A stretch of DNA of 10,391 bases, from the NCBI GenBank assembly GCA_019105125.1, contig JAHRWO010000092.1:1-10391 (forward strand), read 5' to 3'. Below, in pieces: positions 428-6,964 of the stretch; the first letter of the stretch is position 1, and each line of letters begins with the position of its first letter. The position numbers and the translations under genes are program-made. The notes beneath the pieces were generated by a model. That model was not told the origin of the DNA. It was given only the letters and a program-made list of their open reading frames with translations, and ran no database searches. The stretch comes from Flavobacterium sp. GTDB taxonomy: Bacteria; Bacteroidota; Bacteroidia; Flavobacteriales; Flavobacteriaceae.

Positions 428-1247
428 AATTGCCGTTTTTTTGTTAGCACTATTTGTGGTAAGTTGTTCAGGTTCAAAATCAGTAGTTAGAACTTCAGGT
501 AAACACAAAGTCGAACACAAAAAACAACCAATTTCACATGCTAAGAAAACTAGTGCGAATCAAAACGCGGATGCCGTTAATCTAGAGGCAACTTCTAAAG
601 TAAAAACTTATGCAGAGGAAATTCAAATTTATGTAGAGAACTTTAAAGAAATTGCCAAAAATAACATGAAAACCCATGGAATTCCTGCTAGTATCACACT
701 AGCACAGGGAATTTTAGAATCGGGTGCTGGGAAAGGTAAATTAGCACAAACCGCAAATAATCACTTTGGTATCAAATGTCACACCGGTTGGACAGGAGAA
801 AGTGTAAGACATGATGATGATGCCGAACAAGAATGTTTTAGAAAATACGAACACCCATCTGAGTCGTATAGAGACCATTCGATTTTTTTAACTTCTAGAT
901 CGAGATATTCTAATTTATTCAAATTGGATAAAGGCGATTATGAGGCTTGGGCCAAAGGCTTAAAAGCTGCAGGCTATGCTACAGACGTAAAATATCCTGA
1001 CAAATTAATCAGTTTAATTGAACGTTTTGAATTGTATAAATATGATAATGAAGTGTTGAGCCGAAATTTCATGCCTACAAAAAAAGAGGTTGTTTTAGCT
1101 CAAGGTAGTGATTACTACACGATTCAACAAGGGGATACTTTGTATTCTCTATCCAAAAGATTCAATCTTACAGTTGAAGACTTAAAAAAGTTAAATAATA
1201 TGTCAGATAATGCCATTTCTATAGGGCAACAAATCAAAATAAAGTAA
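414..1247 (+). CDS. Glucosaminidase-LysM lipoprotein (peptidoglycan hydrolase, GH73-like)
   Basis: This 277-residue protein probably cleaves the glycan strands of peptidoglycan. It starts with a lipoprotein signal: basic MMKIR, a hydrophobic stretch, then the lipobox VVSC with the acylated cysteine at residue 18. Residues ~20-65 are a Lys/Ser/Asn-rich linker. Residues ~70-210 match an N-acetylglucosaminidase domain, including [16 protein letters not shown] (E102 is the likely catalytic acid), NNHFGIKCH and AGYATD. A single LysM domain (residues ~234-277, [16 protein letters not shown]) ends the protein and should bind glycan. Two tandem ATG codons (414 and 417) are possible starts; both keep the signal peptide. 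The gene overlaps the upstream gene by 14 bp and its stop shares one base with the hemL start (TAATG). Family and location are clear; the exact bond cut is inferred. Confidence 0.9.
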
Positions 1248-2533
1248 TGTTATATAAAAGAAGTAGTGAATTATTTGTTGAGGCAAATAAGGTAATTCCA
1301 GGAGGTGTTAATTCACCTGTTAGAGCATTTAAAGGAGTAGGAGGTACTCCTATTTTTGTAAAAGAAGCTAAAGGAGCCTATTTATATGATGAAGATGGAA
1401 ACCGATTAATCGATTACATCAATTCTTGGGGACCTATGATTCTAGGTCACGCCTACGAGCCTGTGGTAAATGCTGTTGTAGAAAAAGCAAAAAAAGGAAC
1501 TTCCTTTGGTATGCCAACAGAATTAGAAACTCAAATTGCTCAATTAGCTGTAGCAATGGTTCCTAATATTGATAAAATCCGTTTTGTAAATTCGGGTACA
1601 GAAGCTTGTATGAGCGCCATTCGTTTGGCTAGAGGATTTACTAAACGAGATAAAATCATTAAATTTTCTGGGTGCTACCACGGTCATTCGGATTCGTTTT
1701 TAATTGCCGCAGGAAGTGGTTTAAGTACGTTTGGTGTGCCAAATTCTCCTGGCGTAACTGAAGGTACAGCTAAAGATACTTTGTTGGCTGCTTACAATGA
1801 TATTGATAATGTTAAGGCTCTTTTTGAAGCAAATAAAGGACAAATAGCGGCCGTTATTATTGAACCAGTAGCAGGGAATATGGGTTGTATTCCTCCTGTA
1901 AAAGGGTTTTTAAAAGCATTAAGACAGGTATGTACCGAAAATGAAACACTGTTGATTTTTGATGAGGTGATGACGGGCTTCCGATTAGCAAAAGGGGGTG
2001 CTCAAGAATTATTCGGTATTCAGGCCGATATTGTGTGTTTTGGAAAAGTAATCGGTGGAGGTCTTCCTGTAGGCGCTTTTGCTGCAAGAGAAGAAATTAT
2101 GAATTATTTAGCACCATTAGGACCAGTTTATCAAGCAGGTACTTTGTCTGGAAATCCATTGGCAATGGCGGCTGGACTTGAAATGCTTAAATCTTTGAAC
2201 GCTGATAATGAAATCTTTACGCGCTTAGATGAAAAGACAGCCTACCTAGAGAAAGGAATTCAAAGAGTTTTAACCGAAGCTAATGTTGTGTTTACAACGA
2301 ATAGAGTAGGTTCTATGATCTCGGTTCATTTTGATGCAAATCCAGTCTATGATTTTGCAACAGCTAAAAATGGAGATAATGATACCTTCAAAAAATTCTT
2401 CCACGGTTTGTTAAAACGCGGTGTGTATATAGCCCCTTCGGCATATGAAACTTGGTTTATAACCGATGCCTTAACCTATGAAGATTTGGATTTTACAATT
2501 CAGGCTGTAGGAGAAACAGCAAAAGAGTTATAA
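1247..2533 (+). CDS. hemL: Glutamate-1-semialdehyde 2,1-aminomutase
   Basis: HemL is a PLP enzyme that converts glutamate-1-semialdehyde to 5-aminolevulinate, the last step of the C5 route into haem. At 428 residues it has the normal family length. Visible signatures are the N-terminal [11 protein letters not shown] (residues 18-28), [15 protein letters not shown] around residue 115, the cofactor-binding FDEVMTGFR (238-246), and [15 protein letters not shown] with the Schiff-base lysine K267. The ATG overlaps the stop of the lipoprotein gene by one base, so translation is probably coupled. No promoter is seen just upstream, so it should be read from the operon. The stop codon runs straight into the A-tract and left arm of the split terminator at 2534. 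The partner enzymes of the C5 route (HemA and others) are not in this window. Confidence 0.97.
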
Positions 2534-2551
2534 AAAAAAGTCCCGAATTAT
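2534..2551. terminator. Left half of a bidirectional terminator, split by the IS
   Basis: An A-run directly after the hemL stop leads into GTCCCGA (2540-2546) and ATTAT (2547-2551). The exact reverse complement, TCGGGAC followed by a T-run, stands on the other side of the IS at 4311-4324. Removing the IS and one ATTAT rebuilds a stem GTCCCGAA-TTA-TTCGGGAC flanked by A and T tracts, which is a classic bidirectional intrinsic terminator between two convergent genes. As it stands the arms are ~1.76 kb apart and cannot work as a terminator. Confidence 0.7.
2547..2551 (+). repeat. Target-site duplication, left copy (ATTAT)
   Basis: ATTAT directly left of the IS is repeated at 4306-4310 directly right of it. 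Five bases is a plausible duplication length, but in AT-rich DNA it could be partly chance. Its centre coincides with the symmetry centre of the rebuilt terminator. Confidence 0.6.
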
Positions 2552-2567
2552 GGAGGGCACTGAAAAA
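2552..2567 (+). repeat. Left terminal inverted repeat of the IS
   Basis: GGAGGGCACTGAAAAA. Apart from the first extra G it matches the right end in 14 of 15 positions. Its inner part also forms one arm of a hairpin with 2591-2600. Confidence 0.75.
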
Positions 2568-2600
2568 CATCGACTATTTCGATTAGCATCGTTTTTCAGT
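2559..2600. other. Subterminal hairpin at the left IS end
   Basis: ACTGAAAAAC (2559-2568) is perfectly inverted as GTTTTTCAGT (2591-2600). Inside, ATCGA (2569-2573) pairs with TCGAT (2579-2583) around the loop CTATT, leaving TAGCATC unpaired. The outer arm includes the inner half of the terminal repeat, so the left end holds an inverted copy of part of its own repeat. It could be a transposase-binding repeat or an RNA hairpin that blocks read-through; the sequence alone does not decide. Confidence 0.55.
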
Positions 2601-2604
2601 CAAT

Positions 2605-2651
2605 AAAAAACGCTTGTAACAGGATTTTAAACATCCGTTATGAGCGTTTTT
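2605..2651. terminator. Strong bidirectional hairpin terminator inside the IS, downstream of the transposase
   Basis: AAAAACGCT (2606-2614) is inverted as AGCGTTTTT (2643-2651). Pairing continues inward through AAC/GTT and GGAT/ATCC with two G-T wobbles and one bulged A, around the loop TTTAAAC. This gives about 14 base pairs in the core flanked by A and T runs. On the minus strand it should end the transposase transcript. On the plus strand it should stop transcription leaving hemL before it becomes antisense to the transposase. Confidence 0.75.
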
Positions 2652-2744
2652 GTTTTTGCAACTGTTTTTTATTGTAGGTTGTATAAGTCTTTTTTGCTTT
2701 TACTACAGCTTGTTTTTACAAAATACCTGAGAAGATTGCATTTT

Positions 2745-4193
2745 CTACATTAATTTGAGTATTCTTTTTAAGTTTACTGTGAATATTGCTATTGCACCTT
2801 GCATTTGCATATTGGTAATGCCGTATGAAATTGCTTTATCATAACCATGTACATTTTTTAATTCGCTATTTTTGGCTTCTATCTTGTATCGATGTTTTGC
2901 GTTTTCTTTGTAATATTCTGTTTCTTGAAAAGCCATTTGATCTTTATGTAATTCAGATTTTATGGATACTGAATAGGTTTTAGTTTTAGCTCCATCGTTG
3001 TAACAACCATTTTTTAAAGGGCAAGATTTACATTTTTCGACATCAAAATAGTAAGTTTCTACTTGATTTGTTCCAATATTTTTACTTCCACCACGTGCTT
3101 TTTTTATTGCCAAATGTCCTGCTGGGCAAACAAACCTATCGGCATCTTTGTTATAATCAAATTTATCGGCATCTTTTCTGTTTCCTTGTGTTATTGATGG
3201 ATTTAATTTTGCTACTACTTTAATATTTTGCTCGCTTGTGATTTTAAGATTTTCTTTTCCAGAGTAAGCAGCATCACCAATAATGGTATCTACATCAATT
3301 CCATTTTCTTGACTAATTTCTAAAAGCTTAGGCAATTCTGGTCCATCACCTTTTTCACCCGATGTTACTACGGCTGCAGTAATGATGCGCTCTTCAGTCA
3401 TTGCCAAATGAGTTTTGTATCCAAAGAAGGAACTCTCGGCAGATTTATGACCTATTTTTGCATCAGTATCTTTTGATAAAGTTAGGTTTTCTTGAGTATC
3501 CTCCACAGTTTCCTTTAACAGGTTTAATTTCTCTTTCACTGCAGGAATCGAACTTATAGATGGCTCGTTTTCGATACGTTTTTCTAATTCTTTACAATAA
3601 ACCAGCTCCTTTTCTAAATCATTGTCGGTATTCTTTTGAGGCATACGTTCTTTAAATTGGTCGTCAAAGGTGTATATTGTTTTTCGAAGTAATTTGGAGC
3701 GTTCTCTCAATACATCAATGGCTAAAAACGGATTAGATCTTGATAAAGTATGAGTGGCATCAACGATAATAGACTTCGAACGAATGATTCCTTTTTCAAT
3801 AGCAATAGTTACTGTTTTGTTTATCAATAGATTTAATAAGTCGGTGTCTTTTAAACGTAGTTTTCTGAATTTTGTCAACGAACTTGGATTGATAACATCG
3901 TCTTCAGGATTCGTATCCAAAAAATATTTAAAAGACATATCATATTGAGAACGTTCCACTACATCTACATCGGAAATAGTGTAAATTGTTTTAAGAAGTA
4001 AATACTTAAACATACGAACAGGACTTTCTGCCGTACGGCCATTTGTTGTACTGTATTTGTTTAGCAACTCATCATAAATAAAAGAAAAATCAATTAAATC
4101 ATTAATCTTTCTTAATATATTTTCCTTTGGTACTATTAAATCATACAACGTAGAATGAGCACTAAATTGTATTGTTTGCTGCTTTAATAACAT
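2745..4193 (-). CDS. Transposase, IS1182-family-like (DDE type)
   Basis: This intact 482-residue transposase cuts and joins the IS ends using a DDE catalytic triad. The N-terminal ~110 residues (TAESPVRMFKYLLLKTIY, then INPSSLTKFR) resemble the N-terminal region found in IS1182/IS5-type transposases. The likely triad is D145 (SIIVDATHT), D307 (TIIGDAAYSGKEN) and E439 (RYKIEAKNSELKNVHGY). Between the second D and the E are clustered cysteines, C356 (VCPAGH) and C388, C391 and C397 (CKSCPLKNGC), usual for this family and possibly metal-binding. Residues ~185-245 are charged and probably helical. No frameshift or internal stop is seen, so the enzyme could be active. The only promoter candidate is a weak TATATTTA at 4217-4224 (-), which overlaps the insulating hairpin region. 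Family assignment is from motif recall, not a search. Confidence 0.9.
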   Translation of the reverse strand: MLLKQQTIQFSAHSTLYDLIVPKENILRKINDLIDFSFIYDELLNKYSTTNGRTAESPVRMFKYLLLKTIYTISDVDVVERSQYDMSFKYFLDTNPEDDVINPSSLTKFRKLRLKDTDLLNLLINKTVTIAIEKGIIRSKSIIVDATHTLSRSNPFLAIDVLRERSKLLRKTIYTFDDQFKERMPQKNTDNDLEKELVYCKELEKRIENEPSISSIPAVKEKLNLLKETVEDTQENLTLSKDTDAKIGHKSAESSFFGYKTHLAMTEERIITAAVVTSGEKGDGPELPKLLEISQENGIDVDTIIGDAAYSGKENLKITSEQNIKVVAKLNPSITQGNRKDADKFDYNKDADRFVCPAGHLAIKKARGGSKNIGTNQVETYYFDVEKCKSCPLKNGCYNDGAKTKTYSVSIKSELHKDQMAFQETEYYKENAKHRYKIEAKNSELKNVHGYDKAISYGITNMQMQGAIAIFTVNLKRILKLM

Positions 4194-4216
4194 CTAAAAA
4201 ACTCTATAATTACAGC

Positions 4217-4224
4217 TAAATATA
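4217..4224 (-). promoter_or_regulatory. Weak candidate -7 element for the transposase
   Basis: TATATTTA on the minus strand differs from TAnnTTTG at one position and lies 23 bases upstream of the transposase ATG. No TTTG is found at the expected distance; that position falls in the loop of the hairpin at 4233-4260. If real, it is a poor promoter, in keeping with the low expression usual for transposases. Confidence 0.25.
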
Positions 4225-4226
4225 CG

Positions 4227-4260
4227 AAAAAAGGAGTAGAAAAACGTAGTTTTCTACTCC
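4227..4260 (-). terminator. Insulating terminator at the right IS end
   Basis: GGAGTAGAAAA (4233-4243) is perfectly inverted as TTTTCTACTCC (4250-4260) around a 6-base loop. On the minus strand the 11-bp stem is followed by six T (4227-4232), the form of an intrinsic terminator. It lies upstream of the transposase gene and in its direction, so it would stop leftward transcription entering from the 108-residue protein gene before it reaches the transposase. Confidence 0.75.
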
Positions 4261-4290
4261 TTAAATTATTGTAATTATTAACTAAAAGAC

Positions 4291-4305
4291 TTTTTTAGTG
4301 CCCTC
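4291..4305 (-). repeat. Right terminal inverted repeat of the IS
   Basis: Read inward on the minus strand this is GAGGGCACTAAAAAA, matching 2553-2567 at 14 of 15 positions. Confidence 0.75.
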
Positions 4306-4310
4306 ATTAT
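4306..4310 (+). repeat. Target-site duplication, right copy (ATTAT)
   Basis: Second copy of the 5-bp direct repeat seen at 2547-2551, directly outside the right terminal repeat. Confidence 0.6.
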
Positions 4311-4324
4311 TCGGGACTTTTTTT
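4306..4324. terminator. Right half of the split bidirectional terminator
   Basis: TCGGGAC (4311-4317) and a T-run (4318-4324) are the mirror of the arm next to hemL. The T-run overlaps the stop codon (TAA on the minus strand, 4323-4325) of the small exported protein gene. In the uninterrupted state this would have ended both that gene and hemL. Confidence 0.7.
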
Positions 4325-4649
4325 ATTTTATTAAATCTTCGAAAAGTTCAGGTTTGCTTTTTAAGATAGTTAACTGTTCTGGAGTTAAACTATTTACAAT
4401 TTTAGATTCGATAGTATTGTAAATTTCAGTTTTTTCTTCAACCGTTATAGATTTAGATAAAGCTTCATGTTTGTATTTAAGTAAATCTAAAAAACTATTC
4501 TCAATAGAACTATCTAACGTTATAACTTTTACAAGAGCATTAACTTCTGCTTTTGCTAATTTTTCTGCTTCCGTTACTTTATTTTCTTGTGCATTGCTGC
4601 TTGCTCCAAAAGCAAATAGTAATACAAAAGTTAAAAATATTCTTTTCAT
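4323..4649 (-). CDS. Small exported protein with an LTPEQ motif (Spy/CpxP-like, uncertain)
   Basis: The function is unknown. The 108-residue product begins with a clear Sec signal peptide (MKRIFLTFVLLFAFGASSNA, likely cut before Q21), so the mature protein of ~88 residues should be periplasmic. The rest is predicted helical and charged, with LTPEQ at residues 88-92. Helical periplasmic proteins with LTxxQ motifs include the Spy/CpxP chaperones, and the next gene upstream has the same layout, so the pair may be distant relatives with a related envelope role. That is inference; sequence similarity between the two beyond this motif is slight. It has its own promoter candidate at 4683-4713. Its stop codon touches the right arm of the terminator split by the IS, so its 3' end was probably changed by that insertion. 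Confidence 0.75.
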   Translation of the reverse strand: MKRIFLTFVLLFAFGASSNAQENKVTEAEKLAKAEVNALVKVITLDSSIENSFLDLLKYKHEALSKSITVEEKTEIYNTIESKIVNSLTPEQLTILKSKPELFEDLIK

Positions 4650-4727: not shown

Positions 4728-5150
4728 TTAATTATTATTTTTTGGTCTCATTTTCTTTGGCATTCTTCGGTCTCGCATATCCTCTTTTTTTGCTTCCCAT
4801 TTTTCAAATTGTTCAGGATTTAGAATTTTCTTCATTTTAGCTTTCAATGCTATTTGGTGGTCTAAGGCATCTTTTTTCATTTCAAAGCGTTCTTGAGCAC
4901 TCAGTTTTTCACCTTTTTCTCTTTTTCCTTTCAATAATGTCATTTTTTCTGATCTCATTCTGGCTTGATCTAATAAGACAGCGTTTATTTCTTTCTGTTG
5001 TTTGGCGTCTAAATCTAAATCAAGAGTCATTTTTTTAACCTGAAGCTCAGTTTGTTGTTCTGGTGTTAACCTCTCTCTTGCTTGTTTTTTATCTTGTGCA
5101 AATGTTACTGTTGTTAAAACTAAAGCTATTGCAAAAATTAATTTTTTCAT
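4728..5150 (-). CDS. Periplasmic Spy/CpxP-like LTxxQ protein
   Basis: This 140-residue protein has a Sec signal peptide (MKKLIFAIALVLTTVTFA, likely cut before Q19) and a very charged, helical mature part. LTPEQQTE (residues 28-35) and LNPEQFEKWEA (110-120) are two LTxxQ-type motifs separated by ~80 residues, as in the Spy/CpxP group of small periplasmic chaperones and metal- or stress-response proteins. Lys, Arg and Met are abundant and the C-terminus ends in a basic tail with several Asn. Known members hold unfolded envelope proteins or sense envelope stress; for this one the role is inferred from motifs only. No two-component system lies beside it in the window. The gene sits 116 bp downstream of lysS, beyond the lysS terminator, so it should be its own unit. 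A perfect dyad (5165-5177) lies just upstream. Confidence 0.8.
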   Translation of the reverse strand: MKKLIFAIALVLTTVTFAQDKKQARERLTPEQQTELQVKKMTLDLDLDAKQQKEINAVLLDQARMRSEKMTLLKGKREKGEKLSAQERFEMKKDALDHQIALKAKMKKILNPEQFEKWEAKKEDMRDRRMPKKMRPKNNN

Positions 5151-5214: not shown

Positions 5215-5244
5215 AAAAAAAGCGAAACTTTTTAAAGTTTCGCT
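5215..5244 (-). terminator. Intrinsic terminator of lysS
   Basis: AGCGAAACTTT (5221-5231) and AAAGTTTCGCT (5234-5244) form a perfect 11-bp inverted repeat. On the minus strand it is followed by a T-run (5215-5220, plus the last stem base). It starts 23 bases after the lysS stop codon and is a textbook rho-independent terminator. Confidence 0.9.
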
Positions 5245-5266
5245 TCTAATGTAGACTAGCAATAAA

Positions 5267-6964
5267 TTATTTCCCTAAATATTCGGCAATTTTGTGTTCG
5301 CCATCAACTACTACTCGCATCAAGCCATGTTTGCTTAATCCTTTACTAGCAGCATCCCATTTTTTTCCGCTTAATTCTGATTTTATTTTTAAATCACCAA
5401 TCGAAATTCCTTCGTTTGCTTTTAAAATTTCGATAATATGTTTCTCGTCTTCTGTTAATTCTGGACCTTTTTTCTCAGGTCGCATTTGTGGGAAGAATAA
5501 CACTTCTTGTATCGATGGATTATTCGTTAAGAACATAATCAAACGATCCATTCCAATTCCTAAGCCAGAGGTTGGAGGCATTCCATATTCTAAAGCTCTT
5601 AAGAAATCTTCGTCGATAATTCCATTGGCTTCATCATCTCCTTTTTCGGCTAAAGCCATCTGAACTTCAAAACGCTCTCTTTGGTCTATAGGATCGTTAA
5701 GCTCTGAATAGGCATTTGCGATTTCTTTTCCACAAACCATCAATTCAAAACGCTCAGTTAATTCAGGATTATCTCGGTGCGATTTACACAAAGGCGACAT
5801 TTCTTTTGGATAATCCGTAATGAAGGTTGGTTGGATGAAGTTGCCTTCGCATTTCTCACCAAAAATTTCATCAATCAATTTTCCTTTACCCATGGTGTCG
5901 TTCACTTCGATTCCCATAGATTTTGCTGCTTCGCGCAATTCTTCTTCTGATTTTCCAGTAATATCAAAGCCTGTGAATTGTTTGATAGCATCGGTCATCG
6001 TAACTCTAGCATAAGGCGCTTTAAAATCTACTTCGTGTTCTCCAAAAGTAGCTTTTGTAGTTCCATTTACTTGTAAAGCACAATATTCTAATAAATTTTC
6101 AGTCATTTCCATCATCCAGTTGTAGTCTTTATAAGCTACATAAATTTCCATAGCAGTAAATTCTGGATTGTGCGTTCTGTCCATTCCTTCGTTACGGAAG
6201 TTTTTCGAAAATTCGTAAACACCATCAAAACCACCAACGATTAATCTTTTTAAATACAATTCGTTAGCAATTCGCATGTACAAAGGAATATCCAAACTAT
6301 TATGATGTGTAATAAACGGACGCGCAGCCGCTCCCCCAGGGATCGATTGTAAAACGGGTGTTTCCACTTCCATATAGCCTGCTTCGTTGAAAAACGTTCT
6401 CATAGCGTTGAACAATTTTGTTCTTTTCATGAAAACTTCTTTCACTTGCGGATTTACGACTAAATCTACATAACGCATACGGTAACGCAATTCGGGATCG
6501 GTGAAAGCATCATATACTTTCCCTGTTTCATCCGTTTTGGGTAATGGTAGTGGTTTTAAAGTTTTACTTAATATTTTAAAATGAGTTACATTAACACATT
6601 GAGCACCAACTTTCGTAGTAAATAACTCACCTTCAATACCTATAAAATCGCCTAAATCAGTTAATTTTCTAAAAACTTGGTTGTAAAGTGTTTTGTCCTC
6701 GCCAGTACAAATAACATCTCGATTAAAATACAACTGCATTCTGCCTTCACTATCTTGTAATTCAGCAAAAGCCGCTTTTCCTTGATCGCGAACACTCATT
6801 AAACGACCTGCCAAAATAACCTTTTTGCCTTCTTCAAAATTTTCCTTTACTTGCTTCGAAGTGTGATTAACAGGAAATAAATCCGCTGGATATGGGTTAA
6901 TACCTAATTCGCGTAACGCGTTTAGTTTGTCTCTTCTAATGATTTCTTGTTCCGAAAGTTGCAT
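5267..6964 (-). CDS. lysS: Lysyl-tRNA synthetase, class II
   Basis: LysRS charges tRNA-Lys with lysine using ATP in the cytosol. The 565 residues begin with an anticodon-binding OB-fold (about 45-135, VILAGRLMSVRDQGKAAFAE). The class II catalytic core follows: motif 1 around 191-217 (GYMEVETPVLQSIPGGAA), motif 2 at 256-275 (FRNEGMDRTHNPEFTAMEIY) and motif 3 at 467-480 (GLGIGMDRLIMFLT). Residues ~505-565 form a C-terminal extension beyond the usual ~500-residue bacterial enzyme (ISIGDLKIKSELSGKKWD, then a short strand-rich tail); it looks like a small winged-helix-type unit, and similar extra length is known in Bacteroidota LysRS. The gene has a near-ideal promoter (6984-7014) and its own terminator (5215-5244), so it is probably a single-gene unit. 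Confidence 0.97.
   Translation of the reverse strand: MQLSEQEIIRRDKLNALRELGINPYPADLFPVNHTSKQVKENFEEGKKVILAGRLMSVRDQGKAAFAELQDSEGRMQLYFNRDVICTGEDKTLYNQVFRKLTDLGDFIGIEGELFTTKVGAQCVNVTHFKILSKTLKPLPLPKTDETGKVYDAFTDPELRYRMRYVDLVVNPQVKEVFMKRTKLFNAMRTFFNEAGYMEVETPVLQSIPGGAAARPFITHHNSLDIPLYMRIANELYLKRLIVGGFDGVYEFSKNFRNEGMDRTHNPEFTAMEIYVAYKDYNWMMEMTENLLEYCALQVNGTTKATFGEHEVDFKAPYARVTMTDAIKQFTGFDITGKSEEELREAAKSMGIEVNDTMGKGKLIDEIFGEKCEGNFIQPTFITDYPKEMSPLCKSHRDNPELTERFELMVCGKEIANAYSELNDPIDQRERFEVQMALAEKGDDEANGIIDEDFLRALEYGMPPTSGLGIGMDRLIMFLTNNPSIQEVLFFPQMRPEKKGPELTEDEKHIIEILKANEGISIGDLKIKSELSGKKWDAASKGLSKHGLMRVVVDGEHKIAEYLGK

Follow-up and report, generated by a model that had tools for sequence, protein, structure and literature searches.

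Insertion into palindromic DNA is familiar from IS1397, an IS3-family element that inserts into the palindromic units of E. coli. Among the papers that we found, the IS1182-family element for which hairpin targeting is described in detail is the staphylococcal IS1272, which damages the hairpin and leaves no duplication. IS1272/TnSha1 inserts into hairpins, several of which are transcription terminators, and the relevant passages report no primary sequence common to its targets (Furi 2016, PMC4923244; Wan 2017, PMC5678879). The same passages describe partial or complete deletion of the hairpin without target duplication (PMC4923244; PMC5678879), and duplication of the loop is drawn as a hypothetical pathway in the legend to Figure 13 of Wan 2017 (PMC5678879). 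Other members leave 4-bp direct repeats, namely the intergenic MITEPye1, whose ends resemble those of ISPye18 (PMC11578231), and ISCaa15, an IS1182-family element with such repeats in 2 isoforms (PMC3196728). In the titles and abstract openings searched, we found neither A/T-tract targeting nor terminator homing with 8–9 bp duplications for IS1182 elements. A duplication-forming, terminator-homing clade, perhaps equipped with a tract "ruler," is therefore possibly new relative to the hairpin targeting published for IS1272.

The window, which is the whole stretch of 10,391 nucleotides of Flavobacterium sp. DNA that was analyzed, contains an IS1182-family element between hemL and a convergent gene for a small protein with no Pfam or NCBIfam match (Table 1). 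Excising positions 2552–4305 and one ATTAT restores a perfect predicted bidirectional terminator, a GC stem with A and T tracts at the gene end, which folds as DNA into a 15-bp stem with the loop TTA (−15.2 kcal/mol, z −6.27; 0 of 200 shuffles were as good). With the IS removed, the remaining 8,632 bp of the window have perfect stems of at least 8 bp with loops of 3–8 at only two places, this site and one near position 5220. An extra G at 2552 lies between the left ATTAT and the IS core.

Table 1. Features of the element and its insertion site, numbered along the window
Feature	Position	Strand	Basis or remark
hemL (glutamate-1-semialdehyde 2,1-aminomutase), one of two convergent genes	1247..2533	+	TIGR00713, 615.5 bits (cutoff 527.3)
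A-tract, outer part of predicted bidirectional terminator	2532..2539	+	Sequence; overlaps hemL stop
Left half-stem GTCCCGAA	2540..2547	+	Joined-site fold, z −6.27; similar palindrome at the same place in L144 and L145
Left copy of ATTAT duplication	2547..2551	+	Sequence
IS1182-family insertion sequence, 1753 bp, ends GAGGGCACT / AGTGCCCTC	2553..4305	-	Ends common to other copies
Terminal inverted repeat GAGGGCACTGAAAAA	2553..2567	+	Sequence
Terminator-like hairpin within IS, downstream of transposase	2606..2651		z −5.28; missed by simple scan
Transposase, 482 aa, IS1182 family	2745..4193	-	NF033551, 369.2 bits (cutoff 270)
Terminator-like hairpin within IS, upstream of transposase	4231..4262	-	13-bp stem, T tail; z −5.11
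Terminal inverted repeat TTTTTTAGTGCCCTC	4291..4305	+	Sequence
Right copy of ATTAT duplication	4306..4310	+	Sequence
Right half-stem TTCGGGAC	4310..4317	+	Joined-site fold
T-tract, outer part of predicted terminator	4318..4324	+	Overlaps stop of minus-strand ORF 4323–4649
Small protein, 108 aa, other convergent gene	4323..4649	-	ORF

A sequence-only reading had placed the element at the center of a bidirectional terminator; its coordinates at the insertion site all check out, and both the fold of the reconstruction and the empty sites of relatives bear it out. The hemL search for relatives covered 60 genomes, and hemL 3′ ends were compared in 29 relatives. The two most similar Flavobacterium relatives, L144 and L145 (hemL 92% in each), carry an uninterrupted palindrome at the hemL 3′ end (GTCCCGATATAATCGGGAC and GTCCCGATAAAATCGGGAC, respectively) that at 19 nt equals the window reconstruction in length, and a homologue of the small protein adjoins hemL in both. 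A few inner bases set these palindromes apart from that of the window, so they represent orthologous rather than identical empty sites.

For comparison with other copies, the best 80 of 224 relatives were taken (79 loci). From 142 loci (L001–L142) came 89 unique sites, the 53 that were dropped being 30 duplicates and 23 loci without a recognizable end pair. Exact duplications of 7–9 bp flank 74 of the 89 sites, while 15, including the window and L009, have no exact 5–20 bp duplication. The main set comprises 70 sites, distinct in their flanks and each bearing an exact 7–9 bp duplication, with four tandem-copy loci excluded; not all of these sites are independent, as L015 and L023 share a repeat and L066 and L068 a near-identical terminator. 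A later set of 24 further loci gave 12 sites with a duplication, 3 without, 8 without an end pair (Peptoclostridium and Enterococcus plasmid loci among them) and 1 duplicate; L194, the same site as L070, was excluded from this set.

Hairpins (fold ≤ −5 kcal/mol) are present at 52 of the 70 sites, compared with 15.6 expected from swapped arms (sd 3.0, maximum 24), and in 45 of these 52 the dyad lies within 1 bp of the duplication center. L128, whose hairpin is 6 bp off center, is counted in the 52 and excluded from the loop-length test below. The copy-rich genome NK2020 has hairpins at 13 of 26 sites (swapped-arm expectation 3.5, sd 1.6, maximum 9); outside it they occur at 39 of 44, and all 12 duplication-bearing sites of the later set have a hairpin and tracts. 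The hairpin excess, the centered insertion and the orthologous empty palindromes bear out the generalization that had been drawn from one site. As 18 of the 70 sites, 13 of them from one genome, have no hairpin, a hairpin is not a necessary feature. Targeting of one repeated palindromic family was seen only at L015 and L023, two of the three sites in genome G383, which lie inside a repeated palindrome with 11 other copies found and weak tracts; the flanks of other copies differ. Among the orthologues of the L195 site, at least 5 of the 11 compared (L208, L211, L213, L214 and L216) have an A/T-flanked hairpin of other sequence after the gene, and an orthologue search over 40 genomes for the L029 site gave no usable empty site.

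The A-tract and T-tract are a more constant target feature than the hairpin. Within the tracts 9–12 bp outside the duplication, at least six of the eight bases conform at 64 of 70 sites (three or more A and three or more T at 54, two or more of each at 68), and tract and hairpin coincide at 47. For the 8-bp sites (n = 47), A occupies positions −9 to −12 in 91/98/89/87% and T positions +9 to +12 in 89/96/91/85%; the pattern is weaker at the 9-bp sites (n = 21; A 86/76/67/76%, T 95/90/76/90%). T frequencies at outward positions 9–12 are 89/92/78/86% at the 18 hairpin-less sites versus 90/93/87/86% at the 52 hairpin sites. In 400 kb of NK2020, 1.9% of positions show a pattern of three of four tract bases on each side, versus 21 of the 26 insertions in that genome. 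Five sites (L015, L023, L030, L100 and L104) have a hairpin with poor tracts, which suggests that structure may suffice in some members.

Because hairpin-less sites come mostly from one genome and hairpins prevail both elsewhere and in the later set, tracts and hairpin are mostly confounded. With an expectation weighted by tracts and built from hairpin-less sites only, NK2020 has hairpins at 10 of 15 intergenic sites against an expected fraction of 0.354 (p = 0.014) and at 3 of 11 sites in frames against 0.019 (p = 0.001); once arm letters are added, 0.80 is expected for intergenic sites, though the effective n is then only 4.5. Even tracts alone, so weighted, lead one to expect many intergenic hairpins. 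Of 69 intergenic places at which all eight tract bases conform, 16 have a hairpin, a share below that at NK2020 insertions. At sites where the dyad is offset from the tract midpoint, neither has a clearly stronger hold on the position of the cut (slope 0.55; sd 0.75 versus 0.72; n = 44).

The duplication is 8 bp at 47 and 9 bp at 21 of the 70 sites. Its length shows no dependence on that of the loop (rho = −0.10, p = 0.46, n = 51); the two lengths are equal at 6 of 51 sites, duplication and loop coincide at 2 of 51, and loop parity compared with duplication length gives p = 0.056. The window (7 + 5 + 7) had suggested that tract spacing sets the duplication length, an idea that found no support, as arm sums show no difference between 8-bp (13.5, n = 43) and 9-bp sites (14.3, n = 16; p = 0.25). 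A 5-bp duplication, as in the window, departs from this pattern. It may have been 8 bp originally (CGAATAAT, read in transposase orientation), with GA since lost from the second copy; such damage would also account for the extra base at 2552.

The insertion site, the target pattern across copies, the centering, the near-constant duplication length and the hairpin-less sites can be read directly from the DNA. The explanation that we favor, and consider somewhat better than an even bet, is that the transposase prefers a two-fold symmetric target with an A-tract and a T-tract about 9–12 bp on either side of a staggered cut. The target would consist of an A-tract on the left, a T-tract on the right and GC-richer arms between them, and the staggered cut would be repaired to a direct repeat, usually of 8 or 9 bp. 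Bidirectional intrinsic terminators are among the best matches to this pattern in AT-rich Flavobacteria, which would bring copies into the center of terminator hairpins. Recognition of the tracts by the transposase might be direct, through bending or a narrow groove in the DNA roughly one helical turn away from each cut; an inverted-repeat structure probably helps without being required, and an extruded cruciform would not be needed. The sequence-only reading instead suggested that what the transposase recognizes is a hairpin or cruciform, irrespective of sequence, as in the structure-dependent model published for IS1272 (PMC4923244; PMC5678879). The excess of hairpins over swapped arms, the position of the dyad, the surplus over the tract-only expectation in NK2020 and the G383 insertions into a repeated palindrome with weak tracts all speak for a part played by structure, as does the IS1272 precedent in the passages cited. 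However, the 18 hairpin-less sites carry the same tracts and the duplication is indifferent to loop length, and we regard recognition of structure rather than sequence as unlikely, though a serious contender.

Could the pattern reflect survival instead, with insertion lacking any target preference and copies persisting only where harmless, as in terminators at gene ends? Such filtering would fit the prevalence of hairpins outside NK2020 when half of the NK2020 sites are hairpin-less, 8 of those 13 being in frames by a crude test. Survival, however, cannot explain why the cut stays within 1 bp of the dyad or why tract distances are the same at hairpin-less sites inside frames. The register of the cut contradicts selection as the sole cause, which we consider improbable, although selection on survival may sharpen the target pattern. 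That the element itself makes the palindrome, from its ends or from carried flank, found no support and can be dismissed with near certainty: the flanking arms differ between copies whose IS ends are alike, uninterrupted palindromes exist in orthologues, and the unoccupied sequences of L015 and L023 recur letter for letter at other places in their genome, G383. Returning to a preference for tracts, we tentatively extend it, at rather less than even odds, to an IS1182 clade of Bacteroidota and Firmicutes in which a symmetric A/T-tract ruler would pick targets, with the hairpin as bystander or helper. Terminators would then be hit because they carry the ruler, and terminators inside both IS ends would make insertion transcriptionally silent.

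This clade resembles IS1272 in its transposase family and its hairpin or terminator targets, and 52 of the 70 targets are inverted repeats. It differs from what is described of IS1272 in keeping the palindrome and duplicating 7–9 bp at its center; loss of the hairpin without duplication is not what we see, as 74 of 89 sites have duplications and the orthologous empty sites equal the reconstruction in length. Nor does the duplicated length follow the loop, unlike in the hypothetical pathway of Wan 2017. MITEPye1 and ISCaa15 share the IS1182 transposase family or its ends and differ in their 4-bp repeats, and the passages describing them mention no terminator target (PMC11578231; PMC3196728).

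Like IS1397, two of the three G383 copies sit in a repeated palindromic element; the transposase families differ, and the targets here are mostly separate terminator-like hairpins rather than one repeat family. Since the clade keeps the palindrome and leaves an 8–9 bp mark, any genome sequence will reveal its targets. The hairpin-less targets help tell structure from flanking tracts and make recognition by a terminator-homing transposase directly testable.

That this target choice spares genes, as the sequence-only reading proposed, is doubtful in NK2020, where a crude test places 11 of 26 sites inside open frames of at least 60 aa and 9 of 26 inside frames of at least 120 aa. Elsewhere the counts are 18 of 44 and 8 of 44, some frames over terminators probably being spurious. 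A safe-harbor preference read from A/T tracts could serve DNA placement between genes.

The element has the IS1182 layout, a single transposase ORF (2745–4193) flanked by GAGGGCACT terminal inverted repeats, and no further copies were found in the source genome (assembly 74.65% complete). The transposase also scores above the cutoffs for DDE_Tnp_1_6, DUF772 and DDE_Tnp_1, and a search for PDB sequence relatives at E 0.01 found none; D145, D307, E439 and E444, candidates for the DDE catalytic residues, are among the columns invariant across 8 aligned members. T-tailed hairpins with stems of at least 7 bp occur in the internal region upstream of the transposase in 78 of 89 copies and, with contiguous stems of at least 7 bp, in the downstream region in 54 of 89, both being raw counts without shuffle control. 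These terminator-like hairpins may restore the transcription stop after insertion.

The element in the window lies between two convergent genes and encodes a single transposase of 482 aa that scores 369 bits against the curated IS1182 model (cutoff 270). When the element and one ATTAT are removed, the flanks rejoin as A8-GTCCCGAA-TTA-TTCGGGAC-T7, a 15-bp stem with a fold z of -6.27, bearing out the sequence-only reading that excision rebuilds a palindromic terminator. Once the element is removed, the remaining 8.6 kb contain perfect stems of at least 8 bp (loop 3–8) at only two places, the rejoined site included. A second strong perfect hairpin, AAGCGAAACTTTTTAAAGTTTCGCTT, at 5220–5245 between the minus-strand gene 5267–6964 and the ORF 4728–5150, is probably an unoccupied terminator. 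The source genome is an incomplete assembly (74.65% complete) from the genus Flavobacterium; other genomes of its genus correspond to named Flavobacterium records, as shown by site L003, which is identical to L048 of F. aurantiibacter. The small protein beside the element has no match in Pfam or NCBIfam and one database match (96% identity); diverged homologues adjoin hemL in some relatives.

Features at the insertion site and within the element
Feature	Position	Context	Remarks
hemL	end at 2533	convergent partner of small minus-strand gene	
Small gene	4323–4649, minus strand		end at 4323
IS1182-family element	2553–4305 (1753 bp)	between hemL and small gene	ends GAGGGCACT/AGTGCCCTC
Internal hairpin	4231–4262	upstream of transposase	13-bp stem, T-tail, z -5.1
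Internal hairpin	2606–2651	downstream of transposase	z -5.3; not picked by the hairpin scan that found 4231–4262

A search for the empty site in related hemL 3′ regions had been proposed, and comparison of 29 relatives revealed orthologous uninterrupted sites. The two with the closest hemL (92%; small-protein homologue 49–51%) carry, between A- and T-tracts, an uninterrupted 19-nt palindrome of the same length as the window reconstruction (GTCCCGATATAATCGGGAC in L144, GTCCCGATAAAATCGGGAC in L145). A third relative, L146 (hemL 91%), has another palindrome at this position, and hairpins are also seen there in many others of the 29.

A search of the genus identified the transposase in 19 of 398 genomes (E up to 1e-50), one of them the source genome of the window. 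A collection scan, from which the best 80 of 224 relatives were taken, gave 79 loci, and 30 loci were sampled from the metagenome-assembled genome NK2020 (G270), which held many more copies. In all, 142 loci yielded 89 unique sites readable at both ends. The exact duplication was 8 bp in 51, 9 bp in 21 and 7 bp in 2; none of the 89 had one of 5 or 6 bp, and 15 had none of 5–20 bp. Several of these 15 join a left A-tract half-terminator to a right T-tract half, a pattern that would be expected from recombination between copies. Flanks resembling halves of different terminators, with no duplication, were seen at L012, L032, L057, L060, L071, L075, L077, L087 and L096. In G270, L039/L141 and L090/L126 are tandem copies with the same 8-bp duplication repeated between them, and the two IS ends that meet there form a long palindrome. 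Exclusion of four tandem-copy loci left 70 duplication-bearing sites for analysis.

How does the window site compare? In transposase orientation, its left flank terminates in CGAATAAT and its right flank starts CATAAT. We infer that an 8-bp duplication has lost two bases (C--ATAAT), which would explain the extra base at 2552 and match the site to the family; L009 could be read similarly, with a one-base loss. It is also conceivable that the window duplication is truly 5 bp.

The proposal that other copies target hairpins held. Among the 70 sites, 52 fold at -5 kcal/mol or below, compared with 15.6 when right arms of one site were paired with left arms of another (sd 3.0, maximum 24). In the first eight symmetric pairs outside the duplication, 48.6% of cells match versus 32.8% in swapped pairings (sd 1.8, maximum 40), and matching is highest at offset zero. 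In 45 of the 52 hairpin sites, dyad and duplication centre are no more than 1 bp apart; in L128 they are separated by 6 bp. In 400 kb of NK2020, 3.1% of random positions fold as well, as do 3.7% of positions with three of four bases in each tract and 23% (16/69) of intergenic positions with all eight.

These tracts went unweighed in the sequence-only reading. Among all column letters, the most pronounced are A (positions -9 to -12) and T (+9 to +12), counted outward from the duplication (85–98% in 47 eight-bp sites, 67–95% in 21 nine-bp sites), and at least 6 of the 8 bases are present in 64/70 sites. A filter for three of four bases in each tract passes 21/26 NK2020 sites versus 1.9% of genome positions, and 33/44 sites outside NK2020. 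Tract and hairpin coincide at 47 sites; 17 have the tract only, 5 the hairpin only and 1 neither. The suggestion that the transposase recognizes a hairpin rather than a sequence is only partly supported: hairpins are in excess, but in the 18 sites lacking one the tract letters are almost unchanged, position by position. By a crude test that also flags 18/52 hairpin sites, 11 of these 18 lie within a frame of 60 aa or longer (8/13 in NK2020, 3/5 elsewhere). With thresholds unchanged, a later set of 24 further loci, some met earlier, gave 12 with an exact duplication, including Bacteroides, Metabacillus and Priestia plasmid members, and all 12 have hairpin and tracts; the remainder comprised 3 without a duplication, 1 duplicate and 8 without an end pair, with none recognized in a Peptoclostridium locus and three Enterococcus plasmid loci.

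What does the hairpin contribute beyond the tracts? In NK2020, 13/26 sites have hairpins versus 3.5 in swapped pairings (sd 1.6, maximum 9). A tract profile trained solely on hairpin-less sites, used to weight genome positions, placed 59% of expected targets in frames (observed, 11/26) and predicted hairpins at 35% of intergenic targets (observed, 10/15; p 0.014) and 2% of in-frame targets (observed, 3/11; p 0.001). Adding arm letters raised the intergenic prediction to 80%, a figure based on about 4.5 effective positions. On these comparisons, the hairpin is likely to contribute moderately to targeting in addition to the tracts. At sites where the dyad is offset from the tract midpoint, the cut tracks both about equally. 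Two of the three copies in the Flavobacterium genome G383 (L015, L023) lie inside a repeated palindrome, GGGGTGCCCGNAGGGCGGGGTG, of which 11 other copies were found at up to 2 mismatches, five of them exact; the empty sequences of both sites therefore exist in the same genome. As tracts at these two sites are weak (2 and 2), they argue that structure alone may suffice as a target.

The element does not measure loop length: loop size varies between 3 and 8 nt, yet the duplication remains 7–9 bp (rho -0.10, p 0.46, n = 51), and the two coincide in 2/51 sites. This would be more consistent with a symmetric transpososome making a staggered cut of fixed length than with cleavage at the borders of an extruded loop. 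Loop duplication is drawn as a possible pathway by Wan et al. (PMC5678879). According to PMC4923244 and PMC5678879, IS1272, also of the IS1182 family, inserts into hairpins, RNA-seq-supported terminators among them, and both credit Siguier et al. with other palindrome-targeting IS1182 members, which Wan et al. mention without detail. Targeting of terminator hairpins is thus an already known kind of behavior. However, IS1272 insertion is described there as deleting the hairpin partly or wholly, with no duplication, whereas the present elements make an 8–9 bp duplication. Searches of an open-access library found no description of this duplication, the fixed tract distance or hairpin-less targets.

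The element also carries hairpins of its own. T-tailed hairpins with stems of at least 7 bp occur in the matching regions of 78/89 copies upstream and 54/89 downstream of the transposase, counts made with no shuffle control. Such predicted hairpins could stop outside transcripts, standing in for the terminator that insertion splits. Finally, in two Chryseobacterium records (L066, L068) the IS lies in near-identical terminators with the cut displaced by one base, as if this type of site had been hit on two separate occasions.
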